From NCBI RefSeq assembly GCF_028281565.1, contig NZ_JANQJQ010000048.1, positions 62,001 to 126,000 of the forward strand: a stretch of 64,000 nucleotides of DNA, in the 5' to 3' direction. Below the pieces are notes generated by a model. That model was given only the letters and a program-made list of their open reading frames with translations. It ran no database searches and was not told where the DNA came from. This DNA is from Seonamhaeicola sp. GTDB lineage: Bacteria > Bacteroidota > Bacteroidia > Flavobacteriales > Flavobacteriaceae. Positions 19,924-59,741 of this stretch are shown one piece after another. Every line of letters begins with the position of its first letter. Position 1 is the stretch's first letter. The position numbers and the translations under genes were made by a program.

Positions 19924-19943
19924 TTTCGACCAATAACAATTCT
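19924..19943 (-). promoter_or_regulatory. PUL regulatory motif, site A (fucP)
   Basis: Plus-strand core TTTCGACCAATAAC (19924-19937) matches the six-copy consensus exactly. On the minus strand it reads GTTATTGGTCGAAA, facing fucP. About 25 bases downstream lies TAAGTTTC, one base off the Bacteroidota -7 box TAnnTTTG. Sites A and B share an extended conserved segment (GAGAATTGT before the core), suggesting the same protein binds both. Confidence 0.75.
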
Positions 19944-19983
19944 CAAAAGGCGAAGAGTGAAAATTTGATTCATCTGTATTTAT

Positions 19984-22900
19984 CTACCGGTTCATCTTAA
20001 AAATCTGAAGCCAATAATCATTATTAGCTACCAGCACCAATTTATGATTTTGAGTTCCCAAGAACTTCACTTTCCTGGCATCATTATTCGCAAAAAAACC
20101 GCTTTTGGAATTATGTATAGCCTCAAAGTTATTCTTACCGTCACCTAACAGTATGGCTCCAATACCGCCGTCATTACGCGTGGTCTCAATCTCGGATACG
20201 AATAAATTTCCAACCATGAGTATATCCGGATTTCCATCCTTATTAAAATCGTCTACCAGCATATCGTTCACATTAGATACCTGTGCTTCCACCGGCAAAT
20301 TGGTTATGTTAAAGCGTCCATTGCCAAGATTCTCCATATAGGATGTGGCAAAAGTTTCAGCTTTATAGTACAAGGCTTCTTCCAGTTGCTGACCATAGAC
20401 TTCCTGGATTTCCAAAGACGCAAATAAATCATATGATTTTACCTTGGACTTTAAGTCCGGAACCTGTTGTGCAGAACAGGAAAATCCACGTAAAGGATAA
20501 TGCTTTCCAAAATTATAATAGCCCAATACAATATCTTTACTCCCATTATCGTCAAAATCGTCATAATAAACATCGAAGGGTGCTTCCGGCAAGGCCTTAT
20601 ATTTATAATTCAAACCAAGATTTCCCAAAACATAATCCATATCACCGTCATTATCAAAATCACCCTGCTCAATACTGAACCACCAACCGGTGGTGTGTGA
20701 CAGATCCGGGAGAATATGCTTTGAAAAATGGCCTTTAGTATTTTCAAAAACAGTAACGGGCATCCAATCGCCTAGTAATAATAAATCTTGATCGCCATCA
20801 TTATCATAGTCAGAACTTATAGCATCTGCTACCATCCCAACACCGAATAATTCCGGAGCTTTATCTTTGGTAACGTCAACCAGTTTTCCGTTTTGGTTTT
20901 CCAGAAGTTTACTATCTGCCGGCATGGGGTAATCTTGAGGTATGTGACGTCCACCTACAAAAAGGTCTAAATCACCATCCTTGTCAAAATCAAACGGAAT
21001 CGCCACACTTCCGCTAAAAGCAGGCATCTTCAGGTCAGCCCTTGAGAACATGCCTGTTCCATCGTTTAAATAGAGACGGTCACTATAAAGGTCATGCCCT
21101 GCCAAATGTGCATTGCCTCCGCTAACAACATACAGGTCTTTGTCTGCGTCACCATCTACATCAAAAAAGACAGCATCCACGTCTTCGGCAAGTCTGTCGT
21201 TTCTCAAAACATCCTGCCGTGTGGAACGAAAGGAACCGTCAGGTGATTGTATGAATAATTTTGAAGGATAGCCTGCGGCGGCCCCAATATATACATCGTC
21301 CAGGCCGTCATTATTGACATCATCTGTAGCCAGGGCCGGTCCAAACTGTGACATTTTATGTGGCAACAGAATTTGGGCCTCGTAATCATCGAAATTATTT
21401 TCCTGATGCTGATATACTAGTGTCCCTTCAGAACCGATATCCTCAAATAGGGGCACTTGCTTTTCCGCCTCACCATCAACGAAAGATTTACCATCTTCCA
21501 TGAACAATTCTAATACCTTATTAGCCTTAATATTACTTAATCGGGTTTCTTTCCCATTGGGCCACTGTATTGTAAGAGATGGCACTGTTCCAGCTTTTCC
21601 CAATCCAAAATGAACTGTTTGTTCACTGGTGGAATAAATGCCACGTACATTAGTAGTTTCTACCATTTGAGACGCGTTGTTTGATTCCAACATGACCCGC
21701 GTTCCAAAAACCGGTTTATTCGCTTTGCTTTTCAAGTTGACGCGCAAATAGTTTTGGTCGGTATTATTCCTGTATATGAAGGCTTCTTCATTAATATTAT
21801 TCACCACTATATCCAGATCGCCATCATTATCAAAATCCGCATAAGCCGCTCCATTTGAAAACGACTTTTGATCCAATCCCCAATCTGAAGCTACCTTTGT
21901 AAAAATAAGGTCACCGGTATTCTTATACATAAAGTTTGACAATGGTTGAGAAGGTAAAAGGTCAAGTGTTTTGTCCAGGTCCAGAATATCCCAGATACTC
22001 ACCTCGCCTCCATTGGGATTTTTTGTTGTCCAATCCGTAGCAGTTTGCATGACATAATCACTTACAGCCTGCGATGCATCCGTATTACGTATATCACGTA
22101 ATAACCCATTGGTTATGTAAATATCCTTCAGGCCGTCATTGTCAAAATCGGCTATTAAATTGGCCCAGCTCCAGTCAGTAGCAGCTACATTGGCTAATTG
22201 GGCAATATCACTAAATGTACCGTTCCCATTATTGAGGTGTAAATTATTAAACATGTATTGATAATGGCCACCATTCTTAACCACTTTCCAGAATAATGAG
22301 GGCTTCATACCACTCATATTGGATTTTAACCGAAAATTATCTTCAGCAACCATGTCTACAACAAAAATGTCCAAAAAACCATCGTTATTAATATCAGACA
22401 CATCAACGCCCATACTGTAATATGGCATATGGTTTAAAGCTGAGTTGGCCACATTGGTAAAAGTTCCGTCCTTGTTATTCATATAAATGACATCTGGTGC
22501 ATAGAAATCATTTGCCACGTACAAATCTGTCCAGCCATCATGGTTCAGGTCACTTGCAGAAACGGCATTGGGAAACCCTGCTCTGAACAACCCTGCTGAT
22601 TCGGTTACATCCTCGAAAGCTGTTCCATTTACATTTTTATAAAGCCTGGAAGTATATTTTGGTTGTAATAATTTGGTTCCGAAGTATTCCGAATAACTCC
22701 CCGGGTTGGGAGGTTGGTTCAATACAAACAAATCCAGATAGCCATCTTTATTGTAATCCAGAAAAGTAGCGTGTCTGGTGCGTTCCGTATTGGCTACCCC
22801 ATAGGCTTCAGCCCTTTCTGTGAAACGCCCGTCTCCCCTGTTAATATACAGCTTGTTTTTTCTAAGTTCAGGTTGATGATCATAAAGTTCACAGGTCACA

Positions 22901-23295
22901 TAAATATCCAGGTGTCCGTCATTGTTAACATCGGCCACGGTCACACCCGTGGACCAACTGCCATCATTAATAATACCTGCTGCCAGAGTTACCTCTTCAA
23001 ATTTAAAATCACCCCGATTTAAATAAAGCTTATCTTCTACAAGATTACCTGCGAAATATATATCCGTTAAATCATCACCATTAAAGTCTCCCACACCAAC
23101 TCCGGCACCACCATAATAATTTGCATATAACAAGATATTATGTTTAACCTTATCGACAATTGTGTTTTCAAATTGAACTCCTGTATCTTCTGGTTTTAAG
23201 AGGCTAAACAATGTTGTATTCTGGGCAAATGACCATTGAACAGCCATCAGAATCACGGCATAAAGGCCCCTATTTATTCTATTGCGACTTATCAT
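19984..23295 (-). CDS. Secreted FG-GAP/VCBS repeat protein with ASPIC/UnbV domain
   Basis: I chose ATG 23295 (MISRNRINRGLYAVILM), giving 1,103 residues with a signal peptide ending WSFAQ; a GTG at 23334 would extend it. More than a dozen calcium-binding loops of DxNxDGxxD type run through the protein (DFNGDDLTDIYFAGN, DVNNDGHLDIYVT, DFDNDGDLDIVVNN). They form FG-GAP/VCBS propeller blades. An ASPIC/UnbV-type segment lies mid-protein (STSEQTVHFGLGK, then SLTIQWPNGKE). Similar proteins often follow susCD genes in Flavobacteriia and may act as surface glycan-binding partners, but no activity is established. It lies 87 bases after susD and is probably the third gene of the susC unit. Confidence 0.9.
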   Translation of the reverse strand: MISRNRINRGLYAVILMAVQWSFAQNTTLFSLLKPEDTGVQFENTIVDKVKHNILLYANYYGGAGVGVGDFNGDDLTDIYFAGNLVEDKLYLNRGDFKFEEVTLAAGIINDGSWSTGVTVADVNNDGHLDIYVTCELYDHQPELRKNKLYINRGDGRFTERAEAYGVANTERTRHATFLDYNKDGYLDLFVLNQPPNPGSYSEYFGTKLLQPKYTSRLYKNVNGTAFEDVTESAGLFRAGFPNAVSASDLNHDGWTDLYVANDFYAPDVIYMNNKDGTFTNVANSALNHMPYYSMGVDVSDINNDGFLDIFVVDMVAEDNFRLKSNMSGMKPSLFWKVVKNGGHYQYMFNNLHLNNGNGTFSDIAQLANVAATDWSWANLIADFDNDGLKDIYITNGLLRDIRNTDASQAVSDYVMQTATDWTTKNPNGGEVSIWDILDLDKTLDLLPSQPLSNFMYKNTGDLIFTKVASDWGLDQKSFSNGAAYADFDNDGDLDIVVNNINEEAFIYRNNTDQNYLRVNLKSKANKPVFGTRVMLESNNASQMVETTNVRGIYSTSEQTVHFGLGKAGTVPSLTIQWPNGKETRLSNIKANKVLELFMEDGKSFVDGEAEKQVPLFEDIGSEGTLVYQHQENNFDDYEAQILLPHKMSQFGPALATDDVNNDGLDDVYIGAAAGYPSKLFIQSPDGSFRSTRQDVLRNDRLAEDVDAVFFDVDGDADKDLYVVSGGNAHLAGHDLYSDRLYLNDGTGMFSRADLKMPAFSGSVAIPFDFDKDGDLDLFVGGRHIPQDYPMPADSKLLENQNGKLVDVTKDKAPELFGVGMVADAISSDYDNDGDQDLLLLGDWMPVTVFENTKGHFSKHILPDLSHTTGWWFSIEQGDFDNDGDMDYVLGNLGLNYKYKALPEAPFDVYYDDFDDNGSKDIVLGYYNFGKHYPLRGFSCSAQQVPDLKSKVKSYDLFASLEIQEVYGQQLEEALYYKAETFATSYMENLGNGRFNITNLPVEAQVSNVNDMLVDDFNKDGNPDILMVGNLFVSEIETTRNDGGIGAILLGDGKNNFEAIHNSKSGFFANNDARKVKFLGTQNHKLVLVANNDYWLQIFKMNR

Positions 23296-23382
23296 TACTA
23301 ATGGTTTCAAAAAAATAAAGGAGAGTATAACCACCCTCCTTTATCCACTTTATTACTTAATTATAATACATAAATTTAAACA

Positions 23383-24873
23383 TTAATTGGCATCCCACCA
23401 AACGCGTGTGGTAAGCACATCCGGCCCTTGAGCCGCAATGGCTGCCGCATAATTTTCAGGATTGGCGGTTTCCTCACTACCGGAATAAGTTAACCTTCTT
23501 GGGATGGTTCCATTGGTCTCATTTCCGGGGAAGTTAACAGGTGTCAATACCGGGAAGCCTGTACGTCTCCAGTTGGCAAACGTTTCATATTCATTTAAGA
23601 ACGTGGCTATCCAATATTGATTTCCAATCATTTCTAGCGCATTGTTACTGTCAAATGGGTTTGCAACCAAATAATCTGCTATGTCAGTATCACTAATAAC
23701 TGCTGCTTCTCCGTATAATGAAAGCATCTTCATTGCAGCCGTAACGCCGGCATTATAGTGAGCTTCCGCATCACCTCCGGCAAGTCCCCAGCGCTCAGCA
23801 CATTCGGCCAGCATAAACTCAACTTCCGCATAGGTTTGGAAGAACATTGGTGCATCTTCACCGGTAATGATACTTCTATTGGGCTCTGCATAAGCATCAG
23901 TATTCTCCTCTCCAGTCAAGTCTAATAATCCGGCAGAATCCAATCCGTTAGGCAGTCCCTTCAGGTCGGCAGGATTCGTACTACCGTCACTGCGGCGAGC
24001 TGCTAAGATCGGTAAACGCGGATCTCCTTGTAAAAAGCCCATAAAAGTTTCACTGATTCGCGGGCTTCCATCTGCGGAAAATACTTCACCATTACCATTT
24101 TTATTTATGCCGTCAGGCCCATTGGTATGTGCAAGATAGGCTATGTCATCGTTAGATGTCATCAGGCCACCGTTAATGGCCTTAGTTGCCCAGGCCTGAG
24201 CCCCTGCGGCATCAACTTTGATAAGGCGTAAACTTAAGCGCAACATCATAGAATTTGCAAATTTTTTCCACTTTGAAAGATCGCCGTTAAACATAACATC
24301 TGCAGCACCGAATTCAGAGGTACCGGTTCCCAAAGCGGCAGCAGCTTCTTCCAATTCTTTTAGCATATCTGCGTAAATAGCTTCCTGTGAATCATATCTG
24401 GGCATGGTAATACCTTCAATCACACCTTTTCCGGCTTCACTGTAAGGTACATCGCCATACAAATCGGTTAGCCTATGATATACGAAAACCCGTAAAATTC
24501 TGGTAACTGCGATCATTTCTTCCGGATGCCCCTCTTCATTTAACTGAAACAATAAGTCCTCAACCGTTTTAACGGTGTCCGGATAGTAACGATCAAACAG
24601 GGATGAGGCATAACCTCTGTTCCAGCTATATTTATCACCGGTCCAATACCCCGGAATTGTAGCAAAATGCTGCATCATGGTGGAACAATAGATCAAATTG
24701 GCTCGCCAATTCTCATAGCGCCCTCCTGATGTTTGCAGGATGGCTTTTGTCAGTTTATTACCCGGTGCTATTTGTGCTGCTTTAGTAGGGTTTACATTCA
24801 GTTCATCAAACCCCTCATCACAAGAAACGAATACAAGTAATACTGCTAATATTGTAAATACTATTTTTTTCAT
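23383..24873 (-). CDS. SusD-like surface glycan-binding lipoprotein
   Basis: Encodes 496 residues with a lipoprotein signal (MKKIVFTILAVLLVFVSCDE; lipidated Cys at about 19). The following segment FDELNVNPTKAAQI is typical of the SusD-like group that differs from classical RagB/SusD. Other segments fit the family: LRVFVYHRLTDLYGDVPYSE, FANSMMLRLSLRLI and FMLAECAERWGL. SusD proteins cap the SusC barrel on the cell surface and bind the incoming oligosaccharide. It lies 11 bases after susC, so the two form one outer-membrane uptake pair, presumably for the mannose-rich glycan this locus degrades. Confidence 0.93.
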   Translation of the reverse strand: MKKIVFTILAVLLVFVSCDEGFDELNVNPTKAAQIAPGNKLTKAILQTSGGRYENWRANLIYCSTMMQHFATIPGYWTGDKYSWNRGYASSLFDRYYPDTVKTVEDLLFQLNEEGHPEEMIAVTRILRVFVYHRLTDLYGDVPYSEAGKGVIEGITMPRYDSQEAIYADMLKELEEAAAALGTGTSEFGAADVMFNGDLSKWKKFANSMMLRLSLRLIKVDAAGAQAWATKAINGGLMTSNDDIAYLAHTNGPDGINKNGNGEVFSADGSPRISETFMGFLQGDPRLPILAARRSDGSTNPADLKGLPNGLDSAGLLDLTGEENTDAYAEPNRSIITGEDAPMFFQTYAEVEFMLAECAERWGLAGGDAEAHYNAGVTAAMKMLSLYGEAAVISDTDIADYLVANPFDSNNALEMIGNQYWIATFLNEYETFANWRRTGFPVLTPVNFPGNETNGTIPRRLTYSGSEETANPENYAAAIAAQGPDVLTTRVWWDAN

Positions 24874-24884
24874 AACTTCTTTTT

Positions 24885-27800
24885 CTAAAATTTAACATTT
24901 AAACTTACACCATACCTTCTGGCTGAAGGCAATCCGAAATATTCCAGACCCTGGCCGTTACCTACCTGGTATGAAGATTCAGGATCAATGTTCTCAGCAT
25001 CTCTTAACAAATAGAACAGGTTTGAACCTATCACGGAAACTGACGCGCTTGATATTGAGAACTTTTCCAAAAATGTGCTGGGAATTGTATACCCTAGACT
25101 TATTTGTCTTAGTTTAATATAATCAGCATCCTGAATAAACGCTTCGGATATGTCTCCGATATTACTCCAATACTCAGCCAGATCCTCAGGTGCCACAGTT
25201 GCTGTAAACTGCTGGCCTGTGTCTACATCTGTTCCGGTTACCGTTAAGCCGTTTTCACGACCTTCCAGGGTTTGTTTATGCAACCCTCCCAAAGTAGTAA
25301 TTCTGTTGGTGGAAGAAAATATCTGACCGCCAAACTTGGCATCGATCAGGAACGATAAATTAAAGTTTTTATATCTGAATTCATTGGTCCAACCCATAGT
25401 TGTTGGAGGTACTCCTTCACCTAAAATCTTATACTCTCCGCGAACTGCATGAGGAACACCATTAGCAACGTTTTCGTATACAATGTTACCATTGTCATCT
25501 CTTACATAAGACGTCCCATATATGGTCCCGTAAGGTTGTCCGACAAAATGTCTTATTTGTGTTAAATTACTAGTGGTTCTACCTAATTGAATATCGCCGT
25601 TGGCTGCATCGGTAGCAACCACTTCACTATTGTTTATGGATAAATTATAGGTTGTTTGCCAGCTAAAGTCATCCGTTGAAACCGGTCTTGCAGAAATTAA
25701 CATTTCAAACCCTTTATTACTGATTTTACCAATATTCGCCAGGGCACTGCTATAACCTGATGTGCTTGACGTTCCTACAGGTACAATATCATTAGTTGTT
25801 TCTTTAGAATAATATGCAAGATCCAGGGATAATTTCCCGTCAAGCAATCGTGTATCCAATCCTACTTCAAACTCGTCTACGTTATAAGCAACTAAATCAC
25901 CCAATGGAATCTGATTTGGGTCTGATCCTCCAACACCTCCAAAAGGTTGTCCCAGGTGAGATCCGTCAATTCCGTAAACTAATGCAAGTTCATAGGGATT
26001 ATCGGCGCCACCGGCCACTTTAGAGTAACCTGTTCTGAACTTGGCAAATCTTATAACCTCAGGTAATTCTAAAGCATCTGAAAGAATAAAACTTAGGTTT
26101 CCTGAATAATATAAATCATTATTCGGTGTTGTTTTTCCAGGGAAAGACAAGGTTGAGAACCAGTCATTTCTCACTGTTCCTGTTAAATAAAGGTAGTCAT
26201 TATAAGACACCTCCAATGACCCATATAATGAGTTTATTTTTTTCTTAAAATACTGATGCTCTAATGTTTGATTGGATGTATTCTGAACATGCTCCAAACC
26301 TGCCACAACAAAATCTTCTCCTCTTAATTTTAAATTTTCTCTTTCCTGAGTATTTTGAGCGCCTCCCACAAAAGCACTTACTGCAAACTGATCATTAATA
26401 TCTCTGTCAATACCGATCATAAGGTCGGAGTCCGTTTGAGAATAGCGTCTCTCCCATTCTTCCATGGCTCCAAGCGGTTTGTAAGCGGTTCCCCAAGGCT
26501 CCGTAGCCGTTGATTTTCGAGCGTAAGTATCTGTTCCCACTCTGGCATTAATATACAACCAATCTAACACATCATACCTGACGGAAAAAGACCCTATAAA
26601 CCTGTTCCTTGCATCCATGTTATTGAAGTGGAATGCTGCCCAATAAGGGTTCTGATTAAAGATATTGGAGTTTATTCTAAATTCGGTCCCATCTTCATTT
26701 ATTCCGGGTCTATAATCCAATACATTAATATTAGGAGCTGCGTTCATCACTGAAAAGTTTCCGTTTCCGGGGGCATCAGACAAACGCGGCCTGTTCTTGG
26801 CACCCTCTCTTATATACTTGGCATTTACAGTTAAGGTTAACTTTTCACCTAGTTGGGATCCCAAATTTAAAGAGAAGGATTTTCTGTTTAAACTGGCATT
26901 AGGCATAATATCCTGATTTGACAGATCGGTGGCAGAAAACCTGAAATTAGACTTGTCATTAGATCCTGACAACGCTACCGTATTGGTAAAGGTTGTTCCA
27001 GTTCTGTAAAATTTCTTGAGGTTATTTCCGGTATAGGAATAAGGTCTTGATACACCGTCAAATTGCACCACACTGGAGCCATCTAATCGTGACCCCCAGG
27101 AGCTGGAATTATTTAAGGCATCCTCCTGGGTTAAAGGAGCAGCTCCAAAGCTTCCCTGACCATAGCTTGTTTGAAAATCCTGAAGGCTGGTATCCACAAC
27201 ATCAAAAACCGTTGTAGAATTAATCTCAACTCCAATACCTTTCTGACCTTTTCCTGTTTTAGTAGTGATCATGATAACACCGTTTGATGCTCTTGACCCA
27301 TATAATGCAGCTGCCGCCCCACCTTTAAGAACAGACATCGATTCAATATCATCCGGGTTCAAACTGGAAACACCGTCACCACCATCATTACCTCCCCATA
27401 AGGAAGCCGATCCACTAACATCATTACCCATAGGAATACCATCTATAACATATAGTGGTTGATTCTCTCCTGTTAAAGAGGTATTACCCCTTATGATTAC
27501 CCTACTGGAACCAGCGGCACCGGTGGAGTTTTGTGTAATATTAACACCGGCAATCTTACCCTGAAGTCCATTAATAGCATTAGTCTCTTTAACCAAAGAA
27601 ACCTGCTCACCTTCCACCTTGGTAATAGAATAACCCAGGGCTTTAGTTTCCTTTCTGATACCAAGAGCCGTTACCACTACTTCATCTAATTGACTGGCGT
27701 CTTCCTGAAGTGCTACATTAATAGTAGTTTGTCCGTTAACCGCAATTTCCTGGGAGGAAAACCCGACATACGAAAACTGCAATATGGCATTAGCATCGGA

Positions 27801-27998
27801 AACCTCAATGCTATAGTTACCATCAAAATCGGTTGACACCCCTTGCGAAGTGCCCTTGATAACTACGTTGGCACCCGGAAGTCCCATGTTATCAGCAGCG
27901 TTCGTAACAGTTCCTTTTACTGTTATCTGAGCCTGCATGCCATATGTAACGAGCAACAAGCCAAAAGCTAACAGTAGTTTTAGTACTTTTTTTGTCAT
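24885..27998 (-). CDS. SusC/RagA-type TonB-linked outer-membrane transporter
   Basis: Encodes 1,037 residues. After a signal peptide (TYGMQAQ) comes a carboxypeptidase-D regulatory-like domain (about 25-100: VKGTVTNAADNMGLPGANVV). The SusC signature LDEVVVTALGIRKETKALGY follows, then a plug domain (IAGVNITQNSTGAAGSS, QPLYVIDGIP) and a 22-strand barrel ending RRYGVSLNVKF. The terminal Phe is typical of BAM-inserted barrels. It imports oligosaccharides into the periplasm using TonB energy, with the adjacent SusD as lid. It heads the unit susC-susD-ASPIC, and motif site B lies about 73 bases upstream. Confidence 0.95.
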   Translation of the reverse strand: MTKKVLKLLLAFGLLLVTYGMQAQITVKGTVTNAADNMGLPGANVVIKGTSQGVSTDFDGNYSIEVSDANAILQFSYVGFSSQEIAVNGQTTINVALQEDASQLDEVVVTALGIRKETKALGYSITKVEGEQVSLVKETNAINGLQGKIAGVNITQNSTGAAGSSRVIIRGNTSLTGENQPLYVIDGIPMGNDVSGSASLWGGNDGGDGVSSLNPDDIESMSVLKGGAAAALYGSRASNGVIMITTKTGKGQKGIGVEINSTTVFDVVDTSLQDFQTSYGQGSFGAAPLTQEDALNNSSSWGSRLDGSSVVQFDGVSRPYSYTGNNLKKFYRTGTTFTNTVALSGSNDKSNFRFSATDLSNQDIMPNASLNRKSFSLNLGSQLGEKLTLTVNAKYIREGAKNRPRLSDAPGNGNFSVMNAAPNINVLDYRPGINEDGTEFRINSNIFNQNPYWAAFHFNNMDARNRFIGSFSVRYDVLDWLYINARVGTDTYARKSTATEPWGTAYKPLGAMEEWERRYSQTDSDLMIGIDRDINDQFAVSAFVGGAQNTQERENLKLRGEDFVVAGLEHVQNTSNQTLEHQYFKKKINSLYGSLEVSYNDYLYLTGTVRNDWFSTLSFPGKTTPNNDLYYSGNLSFILSDALELPEVIRFAKFRTGYSKVAGGADNPYELALVYGIDGSHLGQPFGGVGGSDPNQIPLGDLVAYNVDEFEVGLDTRLLDGKLSLDLAYYSKETTNDIVPVGTSSTSGYSSALANIGKISNKGFEMLISARPVSTDDFSWQTTYNLSINNSEVVATDAANGDIQLGRTTSNLTQIRHFVGQPYGTIYGTSYVRDDNGNIVYENVANGVPHAVRGEYKILGEGVPPTTMGWTNEFRYKNFNLSFLIDAKFGGQIFSSTNRITTLGGLHKQTLEGRENGLTVTGTDVDTGQQFTATVAPEDLAEYWSNIGDISEAFIQDADYIKLRQISLGYTIPSTFLEKFSISSASVSVIGSNLFYLLRDAENIDPESSYQVGNGQGLEYFGLPSARRYGVSLNVKF

Positions 27999-28070
27999 AA
28001 TTTTTGAAATTAGTTTTATTGTTATTTATAATGTATAAATTAAGAGAAAATCCGTCTGGCCTTTAAAAAA

Positions 28071-28090
28071 ATTCGACCAATGACAATTCT
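28071..28090 (-). promoter_or_regulatory. PUL regulatory motif, site B (susC)
   Basis: Plus-strand core ATTCGACCAATGAC (28071-28084), an exact consensus match. It sits 73 bases upstream of susC in a 276-base gap. A TAATTTAT sequence lies 28 bases downstream of the motif, at the place expected for a -7 box, which would put the transcript start about 30 bases before the susC ATG. The rest of the gap is AT-rich with no other clear element. Confidence 0.78.
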
Positions 28091-30044: not shown

Positions 30045-30107
30045 AGCCTTATTTTTTTTATACGGTCATAGAAAAGAATAATTTCATAATTCAAAGATGC
30101 CCTTTTA

Positions 30108-31973: not shown

Positions 31974-32022
31974 TATGATTAGATTTACCCGAGGAACCAT
32001 TCCGGGTAGAGATTAAGCCTCC

Positions 32023-48447: not shown

Positions 48448-48455
48448 GGTCTATC

Positions 48456-49565: not shown

Positions 49566-49575
49566 GATATAATTT

Positions 49576-50646: not shown

Positions 50647-50656
50647 CTTCTAAAAA

Positions 50657-51637
50657 TTATAAACTGTTTTCTTTTGTAAATACCACGATCTCGTCCAAAT
50701 AACCAAAGGCCATAGCTACAACCGTATCGGCAGCACCATAGTATACGCATAACCTGTTTTGGTTAATATCATGTAACGCTGCACAGGGAAATACCACATT
50801 GGGCACATCCCCCACCTGTTCATAGGCAACCTGTGGTGCCAGTAAATAGGGTTGTGTTCTGTATTTGACCTTTTCCGGCTGATCTTTGTCCAGAATGGCT
50901 GCTCCCATGGCATAGCGAAATCCGTTACAGGTATTAATAACACCGTGATAGAGCATCAGCCAGCCTTCATCTGTTAAAATGGGAATGGGCCCCGCTCCTA
51001 TTTTGGTAGACTGCCACGCACTGTCCTCAAACGGCGTCACCTTCATAACACAGCGGTGTTCACCCCAATATTTCATATCAGGACTATAACTTATATAGAT
51101 ATCTCCGAAAGGCGTATGCCCGTTATCACTGGGCCTGCTCAACATGGCGTATCTGCCGTTTATCTTCTGAGGGAACAACACGCCATTCCTGTTAAACGGA
51201 AGAAAGGCATTTTCACACTGGTAAAAGGTTTTAAAATCAAAGGTGTATCCAATACCTATGGTTGGGCCGTGATACCCATTACACCAGGTGATCCAATAGC
51301 GGTCTTCTATAAAAACCACACGTGGATCGTACTTGTAATCCGATTGGATCATTTGGGTATTCCCGGGCTGCATGACGATTGGTTCATGGTCAATTTCCCA
51401 ATCAATACCATTCTTACTGAATCCTGCAAAAATATTCATTTGCACGGCCTTATTATCACACCTGAAAACACCTGCATAGCCATCTTCAAAGGGTACCACT
51501 GCACTATTAAAGATACTATTGGACGTTGGTATCTGGTCCCTCCGTATAATTGGGTTTTCAGAATACCGCCACATGATATCCGTACTTCCGGCGGGCCTCT
51601 CCTGCCAGGGCATAGTTATTATTTTACTATCAATCAT
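50657..51637 (-). CDS. GH130 beta-1,4-mannosyl-GlcNAc phosphorylase
   Basis: Encodes 326 residues without a signal peptide, so it is cytoplasmic. Segments include [36 protein letters not shown], the catalytic region [19 protein letters not shown] and [20 protein letters not shown]. Asp104 in YDPR lines up with the catalytic aspartate of the characterised N-glycan enzyme of this family from gut Bacteroidota. Such enzymes split Man-beta-1,4-GlcNAc with phosphate into mannose-1-phosphate and GlcNAc. It follows the sodium symporter by 23 bases, suggesting that the symporter imports the disaccharide. Mannosyl-glucose or mannan-oligosaccharide specificity remains possible. Confidence 0.92.
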
Positions 51638-51660
51638 TTAAGTTATTGATTATGGTTTGC

Positions 51661-53538
51661 CTAATTCGGTATTTTATTAACCTTATCAAGCCATGTAAAT
51701 TTAAGAATTATCGAAGTGATAATGAATAGTATCAGGGCTATAATAGCTTTATTATAATCCCTTATTACAAAATATATGGGCAACACGATCATACTGGACT
51801 GCCAAATAATACCTATGACACAATTCATCATATCCTTCCAAAAAGCGTGGTTCTTTGTAATGGAAGGGTCTTCCTTTTTCAATTCTTTATAGATCGTATG
51901 CCACCATCCCCAGGGACGTACATCTTTGTAAAACGATTTAAGCACCGTCATATCAGTAGGTTTACTCAGAAAGGTTCCTAAAAAGGATCCCAGGAGTGAT
52001 ACCCCAAAAATAATAGGGAACAAATAAATAGCATGTAATTGTGATAACTCATGCAAAGCACTGCCTTCAATAAAGTTTCCCTTGTTCTGATCAAGTATGA
52101 ATTGCAAAGTAGCAATTATAAGACCTGCCAGCATGCCCCAGAAATAGCCCCATCCATTAAAGCGCCACCAGACCCATTTCAGGAAATTGGCAGCCACATA
52201 ACCACCAAATAGCGCACTGGTGATCCACAGGGTCAGTGAGTTGATAGAGTTGGCAAAAAATCCCATGAACACACCAATACCTACTACCAGAAAAGAAGCC
52301 AAATGACTCACTTTTACATAGTGCCTGGGCGTGGCTTCGGGTTTAAAATATTTCTTATAAATATCGTTGACTATATAAGCCGGCCCGGCATTAACAAAGG
52401 CTGAAAAGGTAGACATAAAAGCAGCGAGTAATCCCGCCAGCAAAAGTCCTTTAATACCTATAGGTACATGAAAGTTAATCACTTTTGGCAATAAGATTTC
52501 TAAATCCTCTCCGCTAAGCAGGGCATCACCGTTCATTTCAGGACTTAAGGTAACCAATGCAATAACAACCACCGCAGCGATTAACAAATAGCGAGGAATA
52601 TATAGGATCAGGCTCGTAAAGCCACTCATATAAGCAGCTTCTTTTACCGTTTTTGTCGATAGAATTCGCTGTAGATCAAAACTGGGCACCGGTCCTGCAA
52701 TACTTGCAAAAAAACCTTTAAACAAGGTCATCCCTATAAAGGCACCAAACATCTTATAGCCTTCGGAATCGATCAGATCATTAAAGGCCTGATATTTTTC
52801 ACTCCAATGTGTTTCAAGTTCCCAGCCAAAGAAGATATTCTTCCATTCTTCCGAAATGACCGATCCGATCTCCACATCACTGATAGAGATAAACACATAG
52901 GCCGCAACCAATAAGCCGGCAATACACATGATACCGTACTGCAATACTTCGGTAGCCACCACAGAAAACATACCGCCTTTAATGGTATAAATCGTAGTAA
53001 GTAATATGATGATCAATGCGTAGGATTGCTCGGAAGTTAAAAGTTGCTGGGCTCCCAAATGCAGTGCCATGTCCCAGGGTAAAATAATGGCAATAAATTT
53101 CCCGACACCTTCAAAAAAGTAAGCGATAAAACCTATAGAGGATACAATGGCAAAAATAGCCACAATTATATGCGAAGCTCTTCCTGCGCGGTCATTGCCG
53201 AAACGTGTCAATATCCACTCGGAACCGGTCATTATATTGGACCGACGAATCCAAACGGCCAGAAACATCATAATAAATACCTGGTTCCATACAGGCCAGA
53301 GCCACATGAACATAAAACTCTTCACGCCGTATAAGAACAGAATACCAACCATCCAGGCGGTTCCGGAGACATCAAACATCCCCGAGCCATTACTCAAGCC
53401 AAGGAAATACCATTTTATGTTATTGCCTCCCAGGAAATAAGATTTAAGTCCTTTGGACGCCTTTTTAGAAACCCATATTCCAACGAAAAGCGTGAGAAGC
53501 AGATATACTAATATTATGGATGTATCAACGATACTCAT
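51661..53538 (-). CDS. Sodium:solute symporter (SSS family)
   Basis: Encodes 625 residues with about 14 membrane spans. It starts MSIVDTSIILVYLLLTLFVG. Typical family segments are SKGLKSYFLGGNNIKWYFLG, SGTAWMVGILFLYGVKSF, YTIKGGMFSVVATEVLQYG and FMSTFSAFVNAGPAYIVNDI. It would bring a sugar or small glycan across the inner membrane with sodium. Its start overlaps the stop of the upstream GH92 by four bases. The next gene is the GH130 phosphorylase, so the likely cargo is the Man-GlcNAc disaccharide or mannose. Cargo is inference from neighbours. Confidence 0.9.
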   Translation of the reverse strand: MSIVDTSIILVYLLLTLFVGIWVSKKASKGLKSYFLGGNNIKWYFLGLSNGSGMFDVSGTAWMVGILFLYGVKSFMFMWLWPVWNQVFIMMFLAVWIRRSNIMTGSEWILTRFGNDRAGRASHIIVAIFAIVSSIGFIAYFFEGVGKFIAIILPWDMALHLGAQQLLTSEQSYALIIILLTTIYTIKGGMFSVVATEVLQYGIMCIAGLLVAAYVFISISDVEIGSVISEEWKNIFFGWELETHWSEKYQAFNDLIDSEGYKMFGAFIGMTLFKGFFASIAGPVPSFDLQRILSTKTVKEAAYMSGFTSLILYIPRYLLIAAVVVIALVTLSPEMNGDALLSGEDLEILLPKVINFHVPIGIKGLLLAGLLAAFMSTFSAFVNAGPAYIVNDIYKKYFKPEATPRHYVKVSHLASFLVVGIGVFMGFFANSINSLTLWITSALFGGYVAANFLKWVWWRFNGWGYFWGMLAGLIIATLQFILDQNKGNFIEGSALHELSQLHAIYLFPIIFGVSLLGSFLGTFLSKPTDMTVLKSFYKDVRPWGWWHTIYKELKKEDPSITKNHAFWKDMMNCVIGIIWQSSMIVLPIYFVIRDYNKAIIALILFIITSIILKFTWLDKVNKIPN

Positions 53539-55799
53539 TCGGTGTCACTGTTTTTGATTAATCCCCAGTTCTTGTTAGGTTCGGGTCCCATAACCAAATG
53601 CAATGTGCCCCCATTCAGAATGTCCTGATGTGCAATGGATGTACCTTTGAGTGTTTCACCATTTAACGTAGCTTCCTGGATGTATATATTTTTGTTACTC
53701 AAATGTTCGGTTGTAATACTAAATTGTTTTTCAGAATTCGGAATATTGATCTGAACACTTTTAAAAAGCGGAGTCCCCAACTCATAGTGTCCGGATGCAG
53801 GATTTAAAGGATAGAATCCCATGGCGCTAAATACGTACCAGGCAGACATCTGCCCGCAATCTTCATTACCGCTCAGTCCGTTTGGCGTGGTATTGTATTG
53901 GGTATCCATAATATGCTTTGTCCAATACTGTGTACGCCAGGGTTTACCGGCATGATTGAACAAATAGGCTATATGGTGACTGGGTTCATTACCATGGGCA
54001 TACTGGCCGATAAGGCCGGAAATATCAGCAGAAATATTGTCCCCTGTAATTTCAGAAGATTCAGTAAATAACTGCTCCAGGCGCTGCGTAAATATAGATT
54101 CGCTGCCATGCATATCAATGAACGACTTTGTATCATGTGGTACAAACCAGCTATGTTGCCAGGCATTCCCTTCGGTATAATCGGTATGTTCCCGGTGATT
54201 GGAATATTTGGGATCAAAAGGGGTGTTCCAGGTTTTTCCATCATCTGCCTTTCCTCTCATAAATCCGTTTTCGGGATCAAACAGGTGTATATAGGCTTTA
54301 GAACGTTCCAGGAACATCTTGTAATCGTCTTCTTTACCAAGTGCTTTTGCCATCTGTGCCACGCACCAGTCATCAAAAGCATACTCCAAGGTAATGGTGA
54401 CCGATTCATCCAAAAGGTTGTAAGGTATATAGCCATATTCTTTATAGAAATTGAGTCCCCTGTCATCATTCATCATGGTGGTTTTCATGGCTTCAAAAGC
54501 CATGTTGGCATCAAACCCCCGAACGCCCTTAATATAAGCTTCTGCAATAACGGGAATGGAATGATAACCGGTCATAGTATTGGTCTCATTGGCGTAAAGT
54601 GTCCAAACCGGAAGCACACCCCGTCCTTTATAATATTCCAGCATGGAATTAATAATATCCGAAGTTTTATCAGGTTCGAGTAAGGTTAGTAGCGGATTTT
54701 CAGCCCTGAATGTATCCCAGAGCGAGAGGGTTGAATACGCGGTATAATTGTCAGCTGTAACAATACTATCATTTTCTTTTCTGAACTGGCCGTTCTTATC
54801 GCTATACGTTACCGGAGCTAACATGGTATGGTATAAAGCAGTATAGAATATAGTCTTAAGGGAATCCACATCTGTTTCAACCTGGATCTTCGATAAGTGA
54901 TCTTCCCATACTTCCTGAGCTTCCGCTTTAACCTGTTCGAAGTTGAATTGGTTTTTATAATCGAGATTCTCTTTGGCATTTTCAATACTTACCGAAGATA
55001 TGGCTACTTTAACTGCCAGATTATTGCCTTCATTTTCACCAAAGAACAACTGCGCCGAGGTTTTATCTGCTTCAACGCGTTTCTCATCTAATAGTTCATG
55101 ATTGGCGTGGAGGTTATAACCAGTTATAGGTTTGGAAAATTCTACTACAAAGAACACCTTTTGGTTCCGGGCCCAACCTTTACTGAAACGATAGCCACTC
55201 ACTGTATTTTCGTCCTCTATGTTAATGGACGTCTGTGTAGGGCTGTCCCAGTTTATGGCAAATCCCAGATCCATAACAACCGATTTCGGATCTTCTTCCA
55301 TAAACGTATAGTTGTGGAAAGCCGTACGCTGTGTAGAGGTTAACTCCACATTAATATCATGGTCCTTCAGGTACACCTGATAATATCCCGGAGCAGCTTG
55401 TTCCTGACTATGGCTGTAAACGGAACGGTATGCTATGTCATCTCTGGACTCGGGTTTTACAGTCAGATCCACTTTTTTATTTACCGGTATGATCAATATA
55501 TCGGTTAGATCCCCTATACCGGTTCCACTTAAATTCAAATGTGAAAACCCAACTAGCAAAGAATCCGAATAATGATAACCGGAACTCCAGTCCCAACCTC
55601 CAACACCATTAACGGGGCTTACCTGTAACATGCCAAACGGAACAGTTGCTCCGGGATAGGTATGACCGTGTCCGCCGGTGCCTATAAAGGGATTTACATA
55701 ATCAGTTATTAAGTCTGTATTGGCTTCCTTGTCCCTGTTAATCTGGTTACAACTAAACATAAGGACGGTCAGTAATGAAATTAAGGTAATGTTCTTCAT
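53535..55799 (-). CDS. GH92 alpha-mannosidase lipoprotein (canonical GTGxGD-type)
   Basis: Encodes 754 residues with a lipoprotein signal (MKNITLISLLTVLMFSC). Signatures: HTYPGATVPFGMLQVSP, LNLSGTGIGDLTDILIIP, YTEGNAWQHSWFVP with the presumed acid Glu, YAHGNEPSHHIAYLFNH, and GLSGNEDCGQMSAWYVFSAM. It shares the canonical pattern with the 46210-48447 enzyme and likely removes terminal alpha-linked mannose. It heads a tightly packed seven-gene unit: GH92, symporter, GH130, CBM9-like, GH10-like, GH92, glycosylasparaginase. Motif site E lies about 61 bases upstream, in the intergenic region shared with the divergent two-component genes. Confidence 0.94.
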   Translation of the reverse strand: MKNITLISLLTVLMFSCNQINRDKEANTDLITDYVNPFIGTGGHGHTYPGATVPFGMLQVSPVNGVGGWDWSSGYHYSDSLLVGFSHLNLSGTGIGDLTDILIIPVNKKVDLTVKPESRDDIAYRSVYSHSQEQAAPGYYQVYLKDHDINVELTSTQRTAFHNYTFMEEDPKSVVMDLGFAINWDSPTQTSINIEDENTVSGYRFSKGWARNQKVFFVVEFSKPITGYNLHANHELLDEKRVEADKTSAQLFFGENEGNNLAVKVAISSVSIENAKENLDYKNQFNFEQVKAEAQEVWEDHLSKIQVETDVDSLKTIFYTALYHTMLAPVTYSDKNGQFRKENDSIVTADNYTAYSTLSLWDTFRAENPLLTLLEPDKTSDIINSMLEYYKGRGVLPVWTLYANETNTMTGYHSIPVIAEAYIKGVRGFDANMAFEAMKTTMMNDDRGLNFYKEYGYIPYNLLDESVTITLEYAFDDWCVAQMAKALGKEDDYKMFLERSKAYIHLFDPENGFMRGKADDGKTWNTPFDPKYSNHREHTDYTEGNAWQHSWFVPHDTKSFIDMHGSESIFTQRLEQLFTESSEITGDNISADISGLIGQYAHGNEPSHHIAYLFNHAGKPWRTQYWTKHIMDTQYNTTPNGLSGNEDCGQMSAWYVFSAMGFYPLNPASGHYELGTPLFKSVQINIPNSEKQFSITTEHLSNKNIYIQEATLNGETLKGTSIAHQDILNGGTLHLVMGPEPNKNWGLIKNSDTE

Positions 55800-55859
55800 A
55801 CGCTTACTCTGGCTATTTAGTTTATAAAAATTTGTAATTTTGGTCGGACGAAAAATAAA

Positions 55860-55879: not shown

Positions 55880-55923
55880 TTGAAGCTAAACGGCAAAAAA
55901 CGAAGTAATCGGTTCTTTTAAAT

Positions 55924-56985
55924 ATGAAATTTAATTCAAGTAAGTTATATCAAATCTCACTGTCTCACCATGTTATTTTCTGGTCTGTCTATTTTTTATT
56001 CAATACGTTTCGCTGGGGAAGCTATTTTAACGACTACGTGTATTCACTCCAAACCAATTTATTGGGCTTTCCTATACATATGGTTTTGTGTTATCTCAAT
56101 ATTTATGTATTGATGCCGAAATTGGTTTTTAAGAAGCGGTACCTCTCGTATGTTATTCTTTTACCAACCTGTATATTTTTAATGGTGCTGCTTAAATTTA
56201 ATCTCACCTATTTTTTAGTGAGTGAAGATGTCTGGCCTGAAGGTCCGGAGGTCATCAATCGTATTACGCTTAATTATACCATTGATATGATGATCGGTGA
56301 ACTTTATGTGATAACATTTGTCACCGCCATTAAGATCACACTTGATTTTTTGAAAGAGCATAAACGTGTAACCGACCTGGAAAAGGCACAGTTAGAGACC
56401 GAGCTCTTATTTCTAAAAGCGCAGATATCTCCGCACTTCTTTTTTAATACGCTAAATAATATTTATTCGTTGGCAGTTGAAAGGTCGAAAAAAACGCCTC
56501 AGATTATTCTCAAGCTATCGGAATTAATGCGTTATCTGCTTTATGAGACCAAGCACCGGCGTCAGTCTTTAGAAAAGGAAGTGCTCTGTATTCAAAATTA
56601 TCTCGACCTTGAACGCATACGTCATGGCGAATTATTAGAGGTCAATATGTCCATTTCCGGAGACATCAGAGGTAAAAAGATCGCCCCTATATTACTGTTA
56701 TCTTTTGTTGAAAATGCTTTTAAACATGGAGCCAATGCAAATATTGGTAAAGTAAAAATCGATATTAATTTTATGGTTCAAGAAGATTTTCTTTATTTTA
56801 CAATCTCTAACCCGAAGCCGACCCTAAGTAAAAACAACCAAAGTCAAAAGATAAGTTCCAGCGGTATCGGGATTGAAAATGTAAAGAAGCGACTTGCTCT
56901 GGGGTACAAAAAGAACGATTATAAATTGACTTTTAATACAGACGATGATCAATTCATTGTAGACCTGAAAATAAAAGTAGCATGA
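55924..56985 (+). CDS. LytS/YehU-type membrane sensor histidine kinase
   Basis: Encodes 353 residues. Four membrane spans occupy about residues 12-145 (HVIFWSVYFLFNTF, LQTNLLGFPIHMVLCYLNIY, YVILLPTCIFLMVLLKF, MIGELYVITFVTAIKI). A short coiled linker and a His_kinase domain follow. The phosphoacceptor is likely His171 in LKAQISPHFFFNTLNNIYSL. The ATPase part has LLLSFVENAFKHGAN and SSGIGIENVKKRL. It has no extracytoplasmic sensor domain, so the signal may be sensed in the membrane. Its stop overlaps the start of the LytTR regulator by four bases. Being embedded in the locus, it is the likely sensor for the glycan or its breakdown products. Confidence 0.93.
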   Translation: MKFNSSKLYQISLSHHVIFWSVYFLFNTFRWGSYFNDYVYSLQTNLLGFPIHMVLCYLNIYVLMPKLVFKKRYLSYVILLPTCIFLMVLLKFNLTYFLVSEDVWPEGPEVINRITLNYTIDMMIGELYVITFVTAIKITLDFLKEHKRVTDLEKAQLETELLFLKAQISPHFFFNTLNNIYSLAVERSKKTPQIILKLSELMRYLLYETKHRRQSLEKEVLCIQNYLDLERIRHGELLEVNMSISGDIRGKKIAPILLLSFVENAFKHGANANIGKVKIDINFMVQEDFLYFTISNPKPTLSKNNQSQKISSSGIGIENVKKRLALGYKKNDYKLTFNTDDDQFIVDLKIKVA

Positions 56986-57692
56986 AAATTAAATGCCTGA
57001 TTATTGATGATGAACCGTTGGCGGTAAATGTTATTAAGAATTACCTCGAGCAAATAGACGATGCTGAGTTGTCAAATACCTTTAACAATGCCATAGACGG
57101 GCTTAATTATCTAAAGAATAACAGCGTTGATGTCATCTTTCTCGATATCAATATGCCTGTGCTTGACGGACTTGGTTTTATTAAAAGCCTGGAAAACCCT
57201 CCTTTGCTCATTATCACCAGTGCTTATGATGAATATGCCATAGAAACCTATGAACTGGATGTTCTGGATTACCTGGTTAAACCGGTTGAATTCCCCAGGT
57301 TTATGAAGGCATTTAATAAGGTGCATCGTCGTTTGGGCATTAAAAAAGCGTCTCAGGATAAGCTTAACGAACGCCCCTACCTGTTCATTAAGATAGACAA
57401 GAAGAAAATGAAAAAGATCTTCCTGGATGAGATCCTGATCATTGAATGTTTAAAGGATTATTTGAAGATCAACACCACCACCGGGAAATATATTGTGCAC
57501 AGTACGCTATCTGATTTCACCAATTTATTACCCGCCAGGAATTTCATTAGAATCCATCGTTCCTATACCGTGGCTATTGATAAGATTGAAGCTGTGGAAG
57601 GCAACAGTGTTGAAATAGATGGACTTCGTTATGTTATCGGGCGTTCCTACATCGATCAGGTTAAGGGCAAAATCCTGAATTCCACAACCTGA
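56982..57692 (+). CDS. LytTR-family response regulator
   Basis: Encodes 236 residues. The receiver domain (about 1-120) has IIDDEPLA and phosphoacceptor Asp55 in VIFLDINMPVLDG; DYLVKPVEFPRFMKAF supplies the conserved Lys-Pro. The C-terminal LytTR DNA-binding domain (about 132-234) has KIFLDEILIIECLKDYLKI, FIRIHRSYTVAIDKIEAVEG and IGRSYIDQVK. LytTR proteins bind two short direct repeats about 21 bases apart. Motif site C has exactly this layout, and five related single sites precede the other units, making this protein the best candidate for the locus-wide activator. It is coupled to the kinase gene and converges on nagB. Confidence 0.93.
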   Translation: MKIKCLIIDDEPLAVNVIKNYLEQIDDAELSNTFNNAIDGLNYLKNNSVDVIFLDINMPVLDGLGFIKSLENPPLLIITSAYDEYAIETYELDVLDYLVKPVEFPRFMKAFNKVHRRLGIKKASQDKLNERPYLFIKIDKKKMKKIFLDEILIIECLKDYLKINTTTGKYIVHSTLSDFTNLLPARNFIRIHRSYTVAIDKIEAVEGNSVEIDGLRYVIGRSYIDQVKGKILNSTT

Positions 57693-57744: not shown

Positions 57745-59658
57745 CTAGAATAAATAGCGCTTAAAAGCTTCCATGGCGGCATAATCGGCCAGCCCCATAT
57801 CATTGTATTTTTTGGCTGTTAACCGGTTTCTGTCCTCCACGCGTACCCAAAACTCCCTGGAATCATCTCCCTGGAACATCACGCCATCTTTTTGGGACTG
57901 ATGATAAAATATGGCATGGCGTTTTTTAAGTACCTGATCCGGGCTCATGGGAACTGCCATATCAATTTCATAAAGCTCCCACTCGTGCCAGGCACCGCGG
58001 TATAGCCATACCCAGCAATCCTTCATATAATCCTTATGCTTTAAAGCCTCTATAGCCATAAACAAAGCATCTAAACATACTTTATGGGTACCATGGGGGT
58101 CAGCAAGGTCTCCGGCGGCATAAATTTGATGGGGCTTAACGCGTTCAATGATGTCACACATGATAGCGACATCTTTTTGCGACAAATTATTTTTCTTGAT
58201 GGTGCCCGTTTCATAAAACGGGAGGTCCAGAAAATGCACATGACTATCATCAAGGTTTAGATACCTGGTGGCGGCCAGTGATTCGCTACGACGGATATTG
58301 GCTTTCAATTTTCTAACTGGAAGTGTATCGATGTCATTTTCGGTTTTCTGATTTAAAAATTTGATGATAGCATCAGCATCTTTTGAATCGGTGCTAAGGG
58401 ATTTAGCTATTTCGGCAAATTTCAATGCTTCTTCGTCAGATACGGCAATATTCCCGGAAGTCTGATAAGCTATATGCACCTCGTGCCCCTGCTCTACAAG
58501 CCGGTCGAATGTACCTCCCATAGAGATCACATCGTCGTCCGGATGTGGGCTAAATATAATGACCCGCTTTTGCTCCGGTTGTGATCGTTCGGGACGGTAA
58601 GTATCATCGGCATCCGGTTTACCTCCGGGCCAACCGGTAATGGTGTGTTGCAGTTTGTTGAACATCTTAATGTTCAGATCGTAAGCAGTTCCTTCTTCAG
58701 TCAAAAGACCGGACATCCCATTGTCATTATAATCCTTATCGGTTAATTTTAAAATGGCTTTATTAGTTAATTCACTTAACCAAACCACCGCTTTTAATTT
58801 TAAAAAATCGGTCCAGATACAAGAGGTTACCAACCAGGGAGTCTTCACGCGGGTCAACTCTGAGGATGCCCCCTTATCCAGCACAAAAGTTGTATTGTTG
58901 TGTTCCTGCAAATAGGTTGCGGGAACCTGGGAGGTGATCGCTCCTTCAACAGTCTTCTTAACAATATCGGCCTTACTCACACCCCATGCCAAAAGGACAA
59001 TGCGCTTTGCTGCCCTTACCGTACCTACCCCCATAGTAATGGCTTTTCGGGGCACATTATCTATACCCAAAAAAGCAGGTGCCGCATCCACTCTGGTAAT
59101 ATGATCCAGCGTAATACTTCGCGTTCCCGAATTGTAATGCGAGCCGGGTTCATTAAAACCGATATGTCCGGTTCGGCCTATGCCCAACAACTGAAAATCA
59201 ATACCTCCATACGATTTGATCTTCATTTCATAGTCGATACAATGCTGATACAGCGCCTCAGCCCTAACACTACCATCCGGTATATTAATATTTTCAGGCA
59301 GTATATCTACATGGTCAAACAAATGCTCTTGCATGAAGTAGTAATAACTTTGGATATTCTGCTTGTCCATCGGATAATACTCATCCAGGTTAAAGGTAAC
59401 GACATTGGCAAAACTGAGCCCTTCTTCTTTATGCATTCTCACCAGTTCTTCATATACCTTTATTGGTGAAGATCCTGTGGCCAGGCCTAAAACACAGGTT
59501 TCATTCAGTGCTTCTTTCTTCCTGATGAGATTGGCCATTTCCCGGGCAACAAGTACGGAGGCCTCCCGGGAAGAATCAAATATGACGTTGTGGATACGCT
59601 CAAACCGGGTGTCTTCAAATTTGCCGGCTTCAGTGTAGGTAATGGTTTGATCTAACAT
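57745..59658 (-). CDS. nagB: Glucosamine-6-phosphate deaminase fused to PIG-L deacetylase-like domain
   Basis: Encodes 637 residues without a signal peptide. Residues about 1-270 are a NagB domain: CVLGLATGSSPIKVYEELVR, VVTFNLDEYYPMDKQNIQSY, and a GIGRTGHIGFNEPGSHYNSG active-site loop. It converts glucosamine-6-phosphate to fructose-6-phosphate and ammonia. Residues about 365-600 are PIG-L/LmbE-like with the zinc motif IIFSPHPDDDVISMGGTFD, then AAGDLADPHGTHKV. Such domains deacetylate GlcNAc-type substrates. The fusion is the usual long Bacteroidota NagB, and it could join deacetylation and deamination of GlcNAc released by this locus. Motif site F lies about 64 bases upstream, tying it to the regulon. 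Confidence 0.92.
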   Translation of the reverse strand: MLDQTITYTEAGKFEDTRFERIHNVIFDSSREASVLVAREMANLIRKKEALNETCVLGLATGSSPIKVYEELVRMHKEEGLSFANVVTFNLDEYYPMDKQNIQSYYYFMQEHLFDHVDILPENINIPDGSVRAEALYQHCIDYEMKIKSYGGIDFQLLGIGRTGHIGFNEPGSHYNSGTRSITLDHITRVDAAPAFLGIDNVPRKAITMGVGTVRAAKRIVLLAWGVSKADIVKKTVEGAITSQVPATYLQEHNNTTFVLDKGASSELTRVKTPWLVTSCIWTDFLKLKAVVWLSELTNKAILKLTDKDYNDNGMSGLLTEEGTAYDLNIKMFNKLQHTITGWPGGKPDADDTYRPERSQPEQKRVIIFSPHPDDDVISMGGTFDRLVEQGHEVHIAYQTSGNIAVSDEEALKFAEIAKSLSTDSKDADAIIKFLNQKTENDIDTLPVRKLKANIRRSESLAATRYLNLDDSHVHFLDLPFYETGTIKKNNLSQKDVAIMCDIIERVKPHQIYAAGDLADPHGTHKVCLDALFMAIEALKHKDYMKDCWVWLYRGAWHEWELYEIDMAVPMSPDQVLKKRHAIFYHQSQKDGVMFQGDDSREFWVRVEDRNRLTAKKYNDMGLADYAAMEAFKRYLF

Positions 59659-59721
59659 GATTGCAACATTTCCAATTAATAAAAATAAATTTAGGTATTG
59701 TGGTTATTTCAAAAATCAAAA

Positions 59722-59741
59722 TTTCGACCAACAACGGCTGG
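59722..59741 (-). promoter_or_regulatory. PUL regulatory motif, site F (nagB)
   Basis: Plus-strand core TTTCGACCAACAAC (59722-59735), exact consensus match, 64 bases upstream of nagB. AAATTTAT begins 29 bases after the core on the minus strand, as at site D. A weaker second half-site, CTTTGTCTT, lies about 21 bases upstream of the core on the minus strand, in line with a direct-repeat layout. Confidence 0.78.

Follow-up and report, generated by a model that had tools for sequence, protein, structure and literature searches.

The window, i.e., the whole 64,000-nucleotide stretch analyzed here, is part of a contig of Seonamhaeicola sp. (Flavobacteriaceae). It carries a susC/susD pair together with five GH92 genes and GH31, GH29, and GH130 genes, which is the make-up of a polysaccharide utilization locus. 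Six minus-strand gene units, 21 open reading frames (ORFs) in total, are each preceded by one copy of a short intergenic element. Between units 5 and 6, on the opposite strand, lie the genes of a LytS-type sensor kinase and a LytTR response regulator, the ORFs of which overlap by 4 bp. The element, and its relation to this pair, is our subject. Domains were called by Pfam on 33 window ORFs, among which no hybrid sensor with an AraC-type DNA-binding domain was found. The 369-aa protein of unit 5 has a sub-threshold GHL6 match. The five GH92 proteins, the GH130 protein, the asparaginase-2 protein, the fucosidase, and NagB point to mannose-rich N-glycans as the substrate; from this gene content, we infer an N-glycan rather than another α-mannan.

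On the plus strand, the 14-mer WTTCGACSRAYRAC occurs exactly at 19924, 28071, 36553, 45136, and 59722, and with one mismatch at 55860. In the orientation of the genes the core reads GTYRTYSGTCGAAW; in the form conserved here and in related Flavobacteriaceae, upstream of transport and degradation units, it reads GTYRTYNGTCKAAW. All six copies have one orientation, lie outside the ORFs taken as genes, and precede a minus-strand ORF. These copies and their placement had been described in the first-pass annotation, and the window scan bears the description out. The annotation had also found no full match inside genes, which is right for exact matches; one 1-mismatch match (25668) lies within susC. 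Likewise, five of the six copies are indeed about 50–75 bp from the start codon, the exception being the fucP-like unit; the listed starts are the first ATG/GTG/TTG, and the true starts may be further in. In 100 shuffles the exact 14-mer occurred 0.02 times on average and at most once, versus five times in the window, which agrees with the annotation's view that chance matches are unlikely. When up to 2 mismatches are allowed, the window total of 10 is ordinary (shuffle mean 6.25; 12 of 100 shuffles reach 10). The whole genome (5.27 Mb) contains seven exact matches, five of them in the window. The genome's matches with up to one mismatch number 29, versus 62 for a reversed control; this set is not above background and was not used there.

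Occurrence in related loci and in whole genomes

A GTDB genome search kept 80 loci with regulators 59–80% identical to the window regulator. Twenty-two of these loci were placed in the tree described below, and all 22 are labelled Flavobacteriaceae; the remaining genera we take to belong to the same family. The pattern used for these relatives allowed G or T after GTC and up to one mismatch. Of the 195 matches that it gave in the 80 loci, 167 precede a gene by at most 300 bp, 14 are in coding sequence, and 14 lie elsewhere. The reversed pattern gave 32 matches, none of them upstream of a gene. An upstream site of this kind is present in 76 of the 80 loci, and the other four have an intergenic match to the profile introduced below, 302–432 bp upstream. 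The genes behind the 167 sites are the unit-5 GH92 gene (68), nagB (45), an unmatched 650–749-aa gene (35), susC (8), and others (11). One of the 650–749-aa genes, from F. johnsoniae, was inspected and is a GH29-type fucosidase. A similar layout is seen in 28–40-kb stretches from seven genomes of other genera; in one of them (G021) the divergent site is detected by the profile only, and in another (G075) CBM9 stands behind that site. In Algibacter pectinivorans, the MFS gene next to the regulator is preceded by a site and has a PNGase F-like gene (L155:12307-13386) behind it.

For genome scans, a profile of 45 columns (45 bp; R1) was built from 79 sites in 55 loci of other Flavobacteriaceae, none from the present genome. 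All 167 upstream sites had full flanks and were cut to 79 by thinning at 70% identity. By this profile the six window sites rank 1, 2, 3, 4, 6, and 8 genome-wide (150 of 3889 first-look candidates scored). When the window is scanned with filters off, the next best place after the six sites (scores in Table 1) reaches 6.4 bits. Thus a chance origin of the element is rejected on shuffles, genome ranks, and window profile scores. The first-pass annotation had proposed a whole-genome scan and named scatter of the motif over unrelated places as the outcome that would undo its regulon. Scatter is rejected for the exact and profile matches, the 1-mismatch set being at background.

The rank-5 match (G000:C36:80523-80562, i.e., L167:8523-8562) lies 49 bp before a 143-aa gene that is followed by a GH20 gene. 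It adjoins a NagB homologue and is about 8 kb from a second, sister LytTR regulator. The GH20 unit on contig C36 is probably a seventh unit of the regulon.

One hundred genomes of the family were scanned with stricter filters at an E value of 0.05, and those with an orthologous regulator were counted as carriers. The eight carriers (the present genome, G000, and G013, G019, G021, G032, G036, G075, and G094) have 6, 3, 4, 5, 4, 5, 3, and 2 matches, respectively. Two or more matches are found in 8 of 8 carriers versus 4 of the 92 others (Fisher 2.7e-9). The Fisher value is 2.0e-6 when only G019, G021, G032, G036, and G075 count as carriers; this restricted test drops the present genome as well as G013 and G094, which possibly overlap with L140, whose sites are outside the training set, and with training locus L157, respectively. 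Of the 32 carrier matches, 26 are within 60 kb of the regulator. In F. johnsoniae CI04, matches 1, 2, 3, and 5 fall in the orthologous locus (L102), the sites of which are outside the training set while close kin are inside. The best of these genome-wide lies 59 bp before a susC/susD pair that has GH29 and GH92 genes next to it. Match 4 (C11:498593), with no gene within 3.5 kb in the reading direction, looks false.

Site anatomy and the sister LytTR system

The 14-mer is real but is only the core of a longer site. In the 79 relatives' sites G0, G7, T8, C9, A11, and A12 are invariant, and the base after GTC is G or T; therefore, the copy at 55860, which the first-pass annotation had listed with a mismatch, is a regular member rather than a deviant one. 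A −7 box of the TAnnTTT type peaks at +41 from the core start in these 79 sites (z 13.1) and at +42/+41 in the six window sites (z 3.5/3.0). The primary sigma factor of flavobacteria reads TAnnTTTG at −12 to −5 (PMC9723704). With the −7 box at about +41, the core would span about −53 to −40 and abut −33. That is, the core appears to lie where an activator would bind, just upstream of −33.

In some site classes, though not all, the core is the promoter-proximal half of a direct repeat with a 21-bp period. When a further copy of the 14-mer is sought, −21 is the best offset for nagB sites (n = 19, z 8.0) and GH92 divergent sites (n = 21, z 6.0); it also comes first in a mixed class (n = 13, z 2.8) and among the six window sites (z 3.1). 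A literal self-repeat test of the nagB sites also peaks at 21 (z 10.9). In the window, the clearest direct repeat is at 36553. For comparison, LytTR sites are described as 9–11-nt repeats with 11–13-nt spacers (PMC4847170); in many cases the repeats are separated by 12 bp and located immediately upstream of −35 (PMC6193735).

A tree of 45 regulators splits 28 versus 17 (support 100/100), and the present genome has one regulator in each clade, the sister being at C36:88511. In 8 of the 15 sister stretches shown, susC, susD, and nagB are within three ORFs of the kinase gene. The two clades differ in the core. In the region upstream of the kinase gene, the GTC type fits better in 76 of 78 ortholog loci (no kinase was found in two more), whereas of the 12 sister loci, 10 are better matched by the GTA type, one is a tie, and one is GTC. 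Twelve of the 17 sister rows were scored; those left out are L038 and L039 (short loci), L186 (no kinase ORF matched), and L189 and L196 (kinase not divergent). The two types were defined after the sister regions had been viewed, and the score is a raw better-fit score in which AT-rich DNA may favour GTA. GTATAA instead of GTCKAA is found in L080, L185, L187, L188, L190–L194, and L197. The sister-clade sites also repeat themselves at 21 bp (n = 12, z 7.3). In the regulator alignment, nine columns from position 135 onward separate the two clades cleanly. The best 60 of 190 PDB matches cover the receiver domain only, with no DNA-bound LytTR template among them.

F. johnsoniae CI04 has a further regulator (locus L220), 45–46% identical to that of the window, which groups with the sister clade (100/99), on a branch flagged as long. 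Its gene is flanked by susC and an MFS gene, GH18 genes are in the vicinity, and the gene order fits the published order CusS, CusR, transporter. The nagB and GH20 genes of the published chitin locus were not identified in the L220 stretch. L220 is probably the CI04 copy of the chitin-locus CusR. Two very similar GTA-type 21-bp direct repeats occur there (L220:2330-2364 and 8491-8525), one before susC and the other before a frame that is susC-like by eye. F. johnsoniae from which CusS/CusR had been deleted no longer grew on chitin and lacked ChiA (PMC5127042).

Table 1. Putative operators, promoter features, and genes of the window (each core operator is given with its distance to the listed start and its profile score).
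Feature	Position	Strand	Remarks
Core operator (putative) GTTATTGGTCGAAA	19924..19937	-	Ahead of fucP-like MFS gene (179 bp); 29.1 bits
Core operator (putative) GTCATTGGTCGAAT	28071..28084	-	Ahead of susC (72 bp); 24.7 bits
Core operator (putative) GTTGTCCGTCGAAT	36553..36566	-	Ahead of GH92a operon (65 bp); 15.2 bits
Core operator (putative) GTTATTCGTCGAAA	45136..45149	-	Ahead of GH92c operon (50 bp); 16.8 bits
Core operator (putative) GTTATCCGTCTAAA	55860..55873	-	GH92e/kinase divergent region, 60 bp from GH92e; 23.8 bits
Core operator (putative) GTTGTTGGTCGAAA	59722..59735	-	Ahead of nagB (63 bp); 21.0 bits
Upstream half GTTATTTGTCTAAG	36574..36587	-	12/14 consensus, exactly 21 bp from 36553 core
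Stretch 21 bp upstream of 19924 core	19945..19958	-	8/14 consensus
Stretch 21 bp upstream of 55860 core	55881..55894	-	7/14 consensus; contains GTTTAGCTT, common there in relatives
Stretch 21 bp upstream of 59722 core	59743..59756	-	7/14 consensus
−7 box TAAATTTA	59686..59693	-	+42 from core first base
Near −7 box	28036..28043	-	+41
Near −7 box	45101..45108	-	+41
Near −7 box	55825..55832	-	+41
LytS-type sensor kinase	55924..56985	+	Pfam PF06580, E 2.8e-23
LytTR response regulator	56982..57692	+	Pfam PF00072, E 7.2e-19, and PF04397, E 4.3e-17, both above cut-off; proposed binder
Unit 1	18401..19744	-	Pfam: MFS transporter (the name fucP is from the first-pass annotation)
Unit 2	19984..27998	-	Pfam: susC (24885-27998), susD (23383-24873), FG-GAP/UnbV protein (19984-23334)
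Unit 3	28275..36487	-	Pfam: GH92 (34232-36487), GH31, two sulfatases
Unit 4	36594..45085	-	Pfam: GH92 (42686-45085), Gfo/Idh/MocA oxidoreductase, HGSNAT-like, GH29, GH92 (36594-38861)
Unit 5	45176..55799	-	Pfam: GH92 (53535-55799), SSF symporter, GH130, CBM9 protein, 369-aa protein, GH92 (46210-48447), Asparaginase_2 (45176-46198)
Unit 6	57745..59658	-	Pfam: NagB + PIG-L fusion

Interpretation and alternatives

The first-pass annotation had predicted a six-unit regulon of about 20 genes under one DNA-binding protein. The prediction is supported, because of the genome scan, the presence of a site in 80 of 80 loci, the co-occurrence with the regulator, the 21-bp repeat in some classes, and the core change in the sister clade; what it missed is the likely seventh unit. 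Judging from sequence, the element is in all likelihood the operator of the LytTR two-component system of the window, and it very probably serves to activate a regulon for N-glycan or α-mannan use. We propose that the kinase would sense a product of mannose-rich N-glycan breakdown. Once phosphorylated, the regulator may bind as a dimer to two half-sites on one DNA face and, from a position immediately upstream of −33, recruit RNA polymerase. All six units, with their transporters, α-mannosidases, fucosidase, GH130 phosphorylase, asparaginase-2 protein, sulfatases, and NagB, would be induced together, along with the GH20 unit on C36.

Several observations weigh against this assignment. The two exact sites outside the window (C4:52921 and C11:94787) precede a CAP-domain protein gene and an OmpR-type regulator gene, and with such neighbours, a CAP protein and an OmpR-type pair, they are rejected as regulon members. 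Also rejected is the rank-7 profile match (C26:35953), which is inside an ORF. The short pattern by itself occurs widely in the family: non-carriers (92 genomes) have a mean of 1.0 exact matches and a maximum of 6, versus a mean of 4.25 in carriers. As for the profile, 22 of the 92 non-carriers have a match, four of these having two. Four non-carrier matches were inspected. That of G006 (L199:7790-7832; G006:C33:119789) lies 64 bp before a GH92-SSF-GH130-CBM9 operon; the divergent ORF there has 1193 aa, and neither the kinase nor the regulator has an ortholog alongside. Those of G098, G097, and G072 have no gene within 900 bp in the reading direction. The G098 match (L200:8848-8887; G098:C7:102847) scores 24.8 bits, with no gene for about 8 kb downstream and no window-like genes; thus the profile alone can score that high by chance or otherwise. 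The anatomy is uneven, too. The invariance of the core is partly a consequence of how the sites (but not their flanks) were chosen, namely by pattern. Two of the six window sites are without a good box at +41/+42, the best −7 candidates of 19924 and 36553 being at +38 and +37. When the 79 sites are pooled, the best repeat offset is −17 and −21 is only sixth; the GH29 class (n = 26) has no −21 repeat. In the literal self-repeat test, 21 is fourth in GH92 divergent sites (z 4.6) and second in the window six (z 2.3). An obvious second half is found in the window only at 36553, the fit at −21 being 3/14 at 28071 and 6/14 at 45136. That every site is a 21-bp direct repeat is therefore not upheld by the class and window offsets.

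Some of these points would suit another binder, e.g., the sister LytTR regulator on C36 or an unlinked factor, in which case nearness of the element to the pair would be incidental. The rank-5 match stands beside the sister regulator, two of the 12 sister loci are not clearly GTA-type, ortholog-free genomes do have profile matches, and the GH92 operon of G006 has a strong site even though the best regulator match of that genome is in the sister clade. This is nevertheless unlikely, given the opposite core preferences of the ortholog and sister loci, the confinement of multiple matches almost entirely to carriers, and the proximity of most carrier matches to the regulator. A repressor site, or autoregulation of the kinase/regulator pair only, is very unlikely: the site at 55860 is in a divergent region and could act both ways, but the other five are 2–36 kb from the pair and all face transport or degradation genes. 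A location upstream of −33 also suits activation, and the related CusS/CusR acts positively (PMC5127042). The fixed offset to the −7 region in relatives might instead be that of a promoter element for an alternative sigma factor. We consider this extremely improbable and reject it on position relative to the −7 box, which is of the primary-sigma type, with the core upstream of −33. It would also leave the repeat and the linked LytTR pair unexplained, and Pfam matched none of the 33 scanned window ORFs to a sigma-factor family.

With the element read as the operator of the window pair, the sister clade suggests a wider scheme, which we hold to be possible, if somewhat short of probable. A Flavobacteriaceae cell would have two sister LytTR systems, one for mannose-rich N-glycans and one for chitin/GlcNAc, separated by one core base (GTC/GTA) and matching changes in the LytTR domain. 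The GTC-type site before the GH20 unit in the sister locus would link the two pathways at the shared chitobiose core. Such a simple specificity code between sister systems becomes directly testable. An operator that is recognisable from sequence and recurs in many genera predicts which units answer to which LytTR regulator, and on the basis of the regulon it outlines how Flavobacteriaceae use mannose-rich glycans.

Known systems and neighbouring genes

The operator would be a further LytTR two-component operator, of a kind already known. No account of it was found in the portions of the open-access literature consulted, and its absence from print is likely, though not proved. PMC11278836, in the portions consulted, mentions LytTR and GH92 separately and no operator.

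A close parallel is the CusS/CusR system of the F. johnsoniae chitin locus (PMC5127042), likewise a two-component pair beside susC/susD and a transporter gene, with a 21-bp direct repeat before susC at its probable CI04 copy in the sister clade. It differs in its core (GTATAAA versus GTCKAAW here), in its substrate, and in sequence (45% identity to the window regulator). For CusR, the portions of PMC5127042 consulted describe neither an operator nor a domain family. YpdB, HdrR, and BrsR (PMC4847170, PMC6193735) share the LytTR domain with the window regulator. Their sites are pairs of direct repeats with a period of about 21 bp immediately before the promoter, a layout that recurs here in some site classes, while other classes have a degenerate upstream half or none. 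Their repeat sequences, phyla, and targets are different. In Bacteroides thetaiotaomicron, the HTCS_Man and ManR regulons (PMC3878776) also cover α-mannosidase and SusC/D loci, and the HTCS_Man sites are direct repeats as well (two 16-bp sites with a 5-bp spacer). In contrast, an HTCS combines the kinase and an AraC-type DNA-binding domain in one chain, whereas in the window the LytS-type kinase and the LytTR regulator are two proteins. Two-component control of N-glycan use is also described for TCS07 of Streptococcus pneumoniae (PMC9603416, PMC7075642), from another phylum.

Two neighbouring units have gene types like those of the site-led units and are without a site at the listed scan levels: a further MFS + susD unit (window 60084-63949) and, just beyond the window, a second NagB/PIG-L + MFS pair (L077:6399-9697). 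The window also encodes a second signalling pair at 8479-11186, made up of a TPR-type histidine kinase and a LuxR-type response regulator.

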